A DNA stretch of 64,000 nt from contig CAMNII010000002.1 in NCBI GenBank assembly GCA_946540435.1, positions 1-64,000 on the forward strand, given 5' to 3'. The notes under the pieces are model-generated. The model did no database searches. It saw only the letters and a program-made list of their open reading frames with translations, and was not told the origin of the DNA. Positions 15,505-53,067 of this stretch are shown here, in pieces. The position numbers and the translations under genes were made by a program. The stretch's first letter is position 1; each line of letters begins with the position of its first letter. This DNA comes from an uncultured Prevotella sp. GTDB lineage: Bacteria > Bacteroidota > Bacteroidia > Bacteroidales > Bacteroidaceae.

Positions 15505-15717
15505 ATGCAAAAACTTCAATATATCACACCGGAAGTGACTGTGGTGGCCGTCAGGCCATCACAGATCCTGGCGGGCTCACTGCTCGACAAGCTTGAATTT
15601 GTAGTCCCTGAAGAGAAACCGATGAAGAGAGACATCGACACCTACAATGATGAAGATGTGCTTGGTAAACCTAACAATGGTACCGAAATGACCATCCGCG
15701 ACCTGTGGGACTATTAA
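15505..15717 (+). CDS. Small (70 aa) hypothetical protein
   Basis: ORF directly downstream of the BspA-like gene; 'MQKLQYITPEVTVVAVRPSQILAGSL...' resembles small Prevotella/Bacteroides proteins of unknown function. Confidence 0.6.
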   Translation: MQKLQYITPEVTVVAVRPSQILAGSLLDKLEFVVPEEKPMKRDIDTYNDEDVLGKPNNGTEMTIRDLWDY

Positions 15718-15744
15718 ATGAGAAATGAGAAATGAGAAATGAGA
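15717..15744. repeat. 7-bp tandem repeat (agaaatg)n
   Basis: Read directly: aatgagaaatgagaaatgagaaatgagaa. Confidence 0.9.
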
Positions 15745-15746
15745 AC

Positions 15747-15837
15747 GCACTCAAAGCGACCAAATAACGACAAACCGATGTTGCCCCGCGGGGAGGTTTA
15801 GTCGTTATAGGGAGTCTTGAGGGTGAAGGCGTAGCCA
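15747..15837. repeat. Intergenic hairpin element, copy A1 (divergent sequence, same fold)
   Basis: ataacgac(15764-15771)/gtcgttat(15801-15808), A15800 bulge, aaacc(15772-15776)/ggttt(15795-15799), loop gatgttgccccgcgggga; flanked by ctcaa/ttgag. Confidence 0.8.
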
Positions 15838-15840
15838 AAT

Positions 15841-15933
15841 GCCCGCAAAGCGACCGATAAACGGCGGCACGATGATGCCCCTGCGGGGAGTGCCTGCCGT
15901 TTACGGGAGTCTTGTGGGTATCGACGGAGTCAA
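15841..15933. repeat. Intergenic hairpin element, copy A2
   Basis: taaacggc(15858-15865)/gccgttta(15896-15903), T15895 bulge, ggcac(15866-15870)/gtgcc(15890-15894), loop gatgatgcccctgcgggga; outer cccgcaa/ttgtggg. Confidence 0.85.
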
Positions 15934-21352: not shown

Positions 21353-21354
21353 GA

Positions 21355-21394
21355 GGAATGAGAAATGAGAAATGAGAAATGAGAAATGAGAAAT
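21355..21394. repeat. 7-bp tandem repeat (gagaaat)n
   Basis: aatgagaaatgagaaatgagaaatgagaaatg. Confidence 0.9.
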
Positions 21395-21488
21395 GCCCGC
21401 AAAGCGACCGATTAACGGCGGCACGATGATGCCCCTGCGGGGAGTGCCAGCCGTTTACGGGAGTCTTGCGGGTATCGACGGAGTCAAT
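21395..21488. repeat. Intergenic hairpin element, copy B1
   Basis: gcccgcaaagcgaccgattaacggcggcacgatgatgcccctgcggggagtgccagccgtttacgggagtcttgcgggtatcgacggagtcaat. Confidence 0.9.
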
Positions 21489-21616
21489 GCCCGCAAAGCG
21501 ACCGATTAACGGCGGCACGATGATGCCCCTGCGGGGTTTCTGTCCCCCGGGAAACGGGGGAACCGAAGGGGGTTATAGAAGTTAACGTGAGTCTTGCGGG
21601 TATCGACGGAGTCAAT
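21489..21616. repeat. Intergenic hairpin element, copy B2 (chimeric, with insert)
   Basis: Left half matches B1; right half gaagttaacgtgagtcttgcgggtatcgacggagtcaat; outer cccgcaa(21490-21496)/ttgcggg(21594-21600) kept. Confidence 0.8.
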
Positions 21617-21651
21617 GAGAAATGAGGAATGAGAAATGAGAAATGAGAAAT
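21615..21651. repeat. 7-bp tandem repeat (gagaaat)n, interrupted
   Basis: aatgagaaatgaggaatgagaaatgagaaatgagaaatg. Confidence 0.85.
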
Positions 21652-21745
21652 GCCCGCAAAGCGACCGATTAACGGCGGCACGATGATGCCCCTGCGGGGA
21701 GTGCCAGCCGTTTACGGGAGTCTTGCGGGTATCGACGGAGTCAAT
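21652..21745. repeat. Intergenic hairpin element, copy B3 (identical to B1)
   Basis: 94 nt identical to 21395-21488 by direct reading. Confidence 0.9.
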
Positions 21746-21810
21746 GCCCACAAAGCGACCGATTAACTTCAAGCCGACGTGGCACCGCGGTGAGGCATAG
21801 AAGCTAAGAG
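21746..21810. repeat. Intergenic hairpin element, copy B4 (variant arms, right end truncated)
   Basis: gcccacaaagcgaccgattaacttcaagccgacgtggcaccgcggtgaggcatagaagctaag; arms ttaacttc/gaagctaa, bulge A, aagcc/ggcat, terminal CACC/GGTG. Confidence 0.75.
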
Positions 21811-21836
21811 AGAACACATAAGGCATTGCTATAATG

Positions 21837-21876
21837 ACAACGGGGTGACAGTTTTTTCTGTCACCCCGTTGTTTTG
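21837..21876. terminator. Strong bidirectional-type intrinsic terminator
   Basis: acaacggggtgacag-tttttt-ctgtcaccccgttgt (15-bp perfect stem) then tttg. Confidence 0.85.
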
Positions 21877-26662: not shown

Positions 26663-26732
26663 GCCGGACTGCCCGGAGCCGGTTCCTCCTTCACGGGCGT
26701 TCCCAATTTCAAACTACACGGAAAACGCTGTA

Positions 26733-26842
26733 TTCCCTAAGAGAATACAGTGTGATCCCTAAGAGAATACGGTGTAATCCCTAAGAGAATACAATGTAAT
26801 CCCTAAGAGAATACAATGTAATCTCTTAGAGAATACAATGTG
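26733..26842. repeat. 22-bp tandem array (5 units, imperfectly palindromic)
   Basis: Units 26733, 26755, 26777, 26799, 26821; consensus atccctaagagaatacaatgta. Confidence 0.92.
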
Positions 26843-52751: not shown

Positions 52752-52817
52752 ACCAAAATAGGTTATTTTGGTCACCAAAATAGGCTATTTTGGTCATCAA
52801 AATAAGCTATTTTGGTC
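52752..52817. repeat. 22-bp near-palindromic tandem array (3 units)
   Basis: accaaaataggttattttggtc / accaaaataggctattttggtc / atcaaaataagctattttggtc. Confidence 0.93.
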
Positions 52818-52824
52818 GGACGTT

Positions 52825-53067
52825 CCTTACTATCGTCACAGACGACCCTTACCATTCGGTTTCCCAACCCTTATTCTCGGGCTTGCCAATCCTTACTATT
52901 CTGTTTCCCAACCCTTATTCTCGGGCTTGCCAACCCTTACTATTCTGCTTCCCAACCCTTACTCTCGGGTTTGCCAAGCCTTACTATTCTGCTTCCCAAC
53001 CCTTACTTTCGAGCCCGCCGATGCATAGTTTTGGGCAGTGGCTACCCTTACTTTCGAGCCCGCCGAT
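52825..53067. repeat. 22-bp tandem array, about 11 units, alternating A/B types (44-bp higher-order unit)
   Basis: Units at 52825, 52847, 52869, 52891, 52913, 52935, 52957, 52979, 53001, 53023 (23 nt), 53046; e.g. ccttattctcgggcttgccaac / ccttactattctgcttcccaac. Confidence 0.92.

Follow-up and report, generated by a model that had tools for sequence, protein, structure and literature searches.

A fold-defined family of short mobile elements in Prevotella and related Prevotellaceae with precise insertion junctions and a probable single-strand mode of transposition

REPs have a length of 20–40 nt and carry an unpaired GTAG or CGTC tag at the foot of their hairpin. REP and BIME sequences are short, intergenic, multicopy and species-specific bulged hairpins, whose mobility is ascribed to HUH Y1 enzymes acting in trans, the RAYTs (TnpA_REP), and the element described here resembles them in these structural features. 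RAYTs of the Bacteroidetes subclass 2.6 are flanked by 'atypical secondary structures' (PMC6006769), which may be the same thing as our element. IS608 inserts 3′ of TTAC, has TCAA as right cleavage site and possesses imperfect terminal palindromes (PMC5934647). BrickBuilt of Porphyromonas gingivalis is a MITE-minisatellite with a 23-nt repeat inside it, IS5-like inverted repeats and target duplications (PMC4596501). Like our element it is an intergenic repeat of Bacteroidales tied to a tandem repeat; however, the 23-nt repeat belongs to BrickBuilt itself, its inverted repeats and target duplications set it apart, and no sequence kinship was seen by eye.

In this study, a stretch of 64,000 nt from an uncultured Prevotella sp. 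(contig CAMNII010000002.1; the window) was analysed, in which a first-pass annotation had pointed out two adjacent intergenic hairpins, A1 and A2. The shared motifs, both stems and the single-nucleotide 3′ bulges (A15800, T15895) were found as described there, while the limits of the units, given as 15747–15837 and 15841–15933, were corrected to 15744–15836 and 15838–15931. A1 (+ strand; subtype GATAACGACAAACC / GGTTTxGTCGTTAT; precise unit AACGC...GTAGCC) was matched by covariance model R1 at 15744–15837 with 109 bits, its boundaries being taken from rejoined junctions, and A2 (+ strand; subtype TAAACGGCGGCAC / GTGCCxGCCGTTTA; precise unit AATGCCC...GGAGTC) at 15838–15932 with 107 bits. They are neighbouring copies of one element, with A1 inserted directly 5′ of A2. 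An (AAATGAG)n heptanucleotide array of 4.3 units (15716–15745, + strand; TRF, 100% matches), the target tract, begins where the upstream ORF has its stop codon.

According to covariance-model matches and rejoined junctions, the element is 93–95 nt long. Its left end AAYGC.. is followed, from the outside inwards, by an outer stem and, past a small internal loop rich in A, by a short stem. Next come a tandem G.A step, in which CGAC faces GGAG, a stem of 8 bp, one bulged base on the 3′ side, a stem of 5 bp and, at the apex, the motif CGAYGNTGCCCC(T)GCGGGGAG, which forms a helix of its own. The GC-rich loop of the annotation is present, but it is not purely a loop and holds a further CCCC/GGGG helix. 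3′ of the outer stem follows a 3-bp mini-hairpin closed by C-GNA-G, the end being GTC|AA; both this mini-hairpin and the G.A step are parts of the unit. In A1 the mini-hairpin is GGC-GTA-GCC (15828–15836, + strand; alignment pairs 86-95, 87-94 and 88-93, with A-U to G-C covariation), and in A2 it is GAC-GGA-GTC (15923–15931, + strand), followed by an A to form the right end TCAA, as derived from fold, alignment and flank comparison.

Four further copies were located in the window, all on the + strand. Directly 3′ of an rpoD-like ORF, a (GAGAAAT)n array (21353–21395, + strand; TRF) is followed by a copy of the A2 subtype (21392–21485; covariance model, 107 bits) and by a composite copy (21486–21613; 63 bits, 129 nt) with a 5′ half of the A2 subtype, a 3′ half of a third subtype and the apical extension TTTCTGTCCCCCGGGAAACGGGGGAACCGAAGGGGG. 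An (AATGAGA)n array (21614–21652, + strand; TRF) separates these from another A2-subtype copy (21649–21742; 107 bits), next to which lies a decayed copy of the third subtype with a CACCGCGGTG apical helix (21743–21839; 35.6 bits). An orthologous empty site for these rpoD-side copies was not found, the nearest rpoD matches being 76–81% identical with an intergenic region that is not alignable. Besides the window copy, composite copies with the apical part lengthened by TTTCTGTCCCCCGGGAAACGGGGGAACCGAAGGGGG or a near variant occur at L005, L010, L011, L017, L027 and L081, and some of these extended copies join 5′ and 3′ halves of different subtypes. Also, the 3′ mini-hairpin (CGACGAAGTCA) was seen on its own, with no main hairpin, at L078 (− strand, 1463), L126 (7136), L129 (− strand, 6425) and L109 (19), in one case where two different heptamer arrays meet.

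The stem arms of A1 and A2 had been regarded as unrelated in sequence. Across 14 distinct rows from the source genome, however, the arms line up column for column, and the differences between them are compensatory substitutions. In this alignment of 94–96 columns, which was built without reference to structure, double changes were present in 14 of 33 pairs, 97% of the cells were paired compared with 39–43% in slid controls, and the changes were nearly all two-sided. An alignment of 95 distinct sequences showed double changes in 30 of 33 pairs and 91% paired cells (slid partners 37–46%); since it was fitted to the structure, the independent support for covariation comes from the own-genome alignment. 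Columns conserved in more than 90% of the 95 sequences include the CGA of the G.A step, the apical CGA-G-GC and the C..A..G of the mini-hairpin. Covariation within and beyond the source genome is thus very strong, in agreement with the earlier proposal that the pairing is under selection, and the family is identified by its fold, the structure being kept while the stem sequence diverges.

Compared with dinucleotide shuffles, z-scores of the fold were −3.2 (A1) and −4.9 (A2) for the + strand as RNA, and −2.5 (A1) and −3.3 (A2) for DNA. The predicted pairs contained 172 G.T cells versus 52 A.C cells, or 84 versus 52 when two near-invariant G.T pairs were left out. By this G.T excess, folding of the + strand is favoured over folding of the − strand; RNA would give the same excess.

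An exact-pattern search of 150 same-genus genomes matched the source genome alone because the arms diverge, and covariance models were then used. Model R1 gave 42 matches, 38 of them strong, in the source genome (a MAG of 2.06 Mb, 66% complete) and found other Prevotella carriers, which together with the source make up 7 of the 300 same-genus genomes; this is a lower bound, as no more than 14 candidates were scored in each genome and the sensitivity of the scan was limited. With the broader model R2, the element was detected in a second genus as well. Diverged full-length copies are carried by some ten further Prevotellaceae genomes of gut or rumen origin, which belong to the two genera, and none were found elsewhere. 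Scanning 85,462 species genomes for the exact apical motif yielded 32 loci, all in Prevotella, Prevotellaceae or Bacteroidales MAGs, many of which came from the rumen or from the gut of sheep or yak; the element model matches all 32, at least partly. Rfam contained no match for the element at the gathering threshold or at E ≤ 10, and phages, plasmids and viral contigs gave no match either, the two BLAST searches among these being performed with one 96-nt copy. Of the 39 AAAGCGACC sites of the source genome, 30 became loci, and no longer, gene-bearing version was seen among the sites inspected.

Insertion junctions could be resolved to base level from nested copies. At five loci, an A1-type copy is nested in opposite orientation in the apical loop of another copy, the hosts belonging to three subtypes. 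Removal of the 93–95 nt unit [AA...GTC] gives back the canonical host loop in all five cases with no base extra or missing, and therefore no target duplication is formed. A 7-bp target duplication, to which the heptamers on either side had pointed, is ruled out by these nested sites. At 27 of 75 array-flanked sites, period 7 is regained when exactly the unit is removed, whereas boundaries shifted by 1–4 nt or other periods gave 0–4. In 49 distinct 5′ flanks the bases at the left junction were T25 G34 | A49 A49. The right end is G(T/C)(C/T)A|A, and beyond this last A the 3′ side of the 49 flanks is nearly uninformative save for a period-7 echo. The ends, AAYGC on the left and GTCAA on the right, are not inverted repeats. 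The element is thus precisely inserted 3′ of (T)GAA^, with the right end TCAA^ and without target duplication. The complement of the apical loop carries GCAA, a site similar to the target, which would explain why the nested copies are inverted.

Of the three options named in the annotation, the palindromic mobile element is the one chosen here, as the copies are numerous, patchily distributed between species, precisely joined and nested. The findings that might have spoken against a selected structure, namely missing covariation, or pairing accounted for by the terminal inverted repeats of a known IS/MITE, were not obtained: besides the covariation, there was no Rfam match, no target duplication and no inverted repeat at the ends. 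The copies form a non-autonomous mobile element family for which no described family was matched. It illustrates clearly how a mobile element of bacteria can be recognised by fold and not by sequence, and it represents a new structured repeat family for rumen Prevotellaceae, whose mobile repeats are little described.

Like the ends of IS200/IS605 elements and their non-autonomous derivatives, the PATEs, the element has precise junctions that lack a target duplication and inserts 3′ of a short target on the 5′ side only (TG|AA in the 49 flanks). A TCAA-like right cleavage site and imperfect terminal palindromes are shared as well. The missing duplication, the one-sided 5′ target, the TCAA-like right end and the imperfect hairpins therefore point to single-strand transposition of the IS200/IS605 type. 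In contrast to these systems, no tnpA/tnpB parent with the ends of the element was found, and one long hairpin fills the element. An IS608-type guide tetranucleotide was not identified in it, and, unlike in IS608, the mini-hairpin abuts the right end.

We consider it reasonably probable that this non-autonomous, structure-defined element is moved by HUH/ssDNA transposition, for which we have a candidate enzyme. The + strand would fold as single-stranded DNA into the long bulged hairpin and the 3′ GNA-triloop mini-hairpin. An HUH tyrosine transposase (Y1, TnpA_IS200/RAYT-like) acting in trans would cut at TGAA^ and TCAA^, join the cut ends and paste the element 3′ of another TGAA, the target often lying in a tract of 7-nt repeats that follows a stop codon. 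As the target would stay as left flank, a second copy could go in beside the first, giving tandem pairs such as A1-A2. At four loci of the source genome (L001, L010, L011 and L017, the A1-A2 pair of the window among them), an A1 copy is immediately followed on its 3′ side by another element, and these partners differ, which is consistent with re-use of the retained target.

By this probable mode of action the element is filed with REPs and PATEs, yet it departs from REPs in size, with 93–95 nt instead of 20–40, and in tag: conserved columns and ends show no unpaired GTAG or CGTC at the hairpin foot, GTA or GGA occurring only as loop of the mini-hairpin. Further differences from REPs are arms that covary across species and the defined junctions TGAA^ and TCAA^; among the genes checked, no RAYT gene was seen flanked by the element.

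The candidate enzymes belong to a divergent RAYT-like HUH family (alignment A5) of about 330–510 aa, which was reached through the weak tail of a Pfam Y1_Tnp search. Its members carry PDHxH and YxxxNPxR motifs and have an additional domain at the C-terminus. The nearest NCBIfam model was the REP-associated tyrosine transposase, well below cut-off, and the nearest PDB sequences were Y1 transposases, weakly matched (E 0.16–0.7). All 7 carriers from the same genus possess the family, and so do 189 of 293 genomes without detected element, a status that rests on the element scan of limited sensitivity, so that the enrichment in carriers is only mild. Neither the family as a whole, being found in these 189 other genomes, nor any one clade of it, none of which tracks the carriers, is supported as a carrier-specific mobiliser, and the same holds for Pfam Y1_Tnp with clear matches in 6 of 11 carriers and 7 of 14 non-carriers. 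No element was located next to a Y1 or RAYT-like gene among the genes checked, several carriers being incomplete MAGs. For this widespread and barely annotated family, the folded + strand with its TGAA^ and TCAA^ junctions provides a concrete test substrate.

Members of the family (L250, L251, L246, L252, L256, L268 and others) were seen in 196 of 300 same-genus genomes, often in several copies each, and are scarcely recognised by Pfam or NCBIfam. The genes L246, L268 and L280 have flanks with short hairpins GCACTAAAGTGC followed by GAAC, while copies of CCGAGGATAGAATCCTCG lie upstream of L256; both are candidate cognate REPs of the family.

A structured RNA working in 3′ UTRs, in mRNA stability or termination, and repeated only secondarily would account for the better-than-shuffled RNA folds of A1 and A2 and for the G.U tolerance of the + strand. 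It would also agree with the location of the copies downstream of genes, the upstream neighbour being on the same strand in 42 of 58 cases, of which convergent pairs make a part uninformative. Against this function as the origin of the repeats stand the patchy occurrence (7 of 300 same-genus genomes), the missing Rfam family, the self-nested insertions with exact junctions and the composite and decayed copies, and we regard it as unlikely. Integron attC sites, folded single-stranded sites recombined by a tyrosine recombinase, likewise keep their pairing while the sequence varies and have an extrahelical base at a fixed place; such a site, with bulged hairpin, variable arms, conserved ends and an AA/TT core, would also fit the AA at both junctions and the missing duplication. 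Tyrosine recombinases require core sites on both sides, though, whereas the target information of the element is one-sided; moreover, paired R boxes of the attC type (RYYYAAC/GTTRRRY) were not seen when the ends were inspected by eye, and cassette genes were not identified. Recombination of this kind is therefore improbable.

In a retro-element, a reverse transcriptase would copy RNA back into DNA and template slippage would create the tandem tracts. A few truncated copies, the solo 3′ ends and the RNA-like tandem G.A step are compatible with this, but most copies are full length, target duplications are missing and arrays flank the element at either end and vary from locus to locus within a single genome, which makes such an origin very unlikely. 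An ordinary DDE-transposase MITE, which would also be short, non-coding, multicopy and intergenic, can practically be dismissed given the nested sites without duplication and the ends that are not inverted repeats.

The origin of the heptanucleotide arrays is a testable question raised by their association with the element. In 400 kb of carrier sequence, chosen arbitrarily, there were 26 period-7 tandem arrays of many different heptamers, compared with 1 in 614 kb from non-carriers (0 in 380 kb of near-complete genomes and 1 in 234 kb of mostly MAG contigs), a contrast that phylogeny and habitat could confound. According to crude ORF calls, the arrays tend to sit shortly 3′ of gene ends, and in the source genome (AAATGAG)n arrays also occur at places without element match. 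One ssDNA-processing system might both move the fold-defined element of about 94 nt and build or expand heptanucleotide arrays of any sequence at TGAA-like sites by repeated cutting and joining, an idea that we consider rather doubtful.

Period-7 arrays, which are located at 15716–15745, 21353–21395 and 21614–21652 of the window and at L205–L224 and L102–L133, often start at or just past a stop codon. Inverted pairs of (AAATGAG)n arrays, pointing towards each other with about 25–35 nt between them, were observed in the source genome assembly (G000:C8:46551–46658, C13:23723–23865 and C38:2146–2246). Also, tandem arrays with 22-nt units are located at 26729–26841, 52752–52817 and 52845–53011 of the window, one of them with a palindromic unit (ACCAAAATAGGCTATTTTGGTC).
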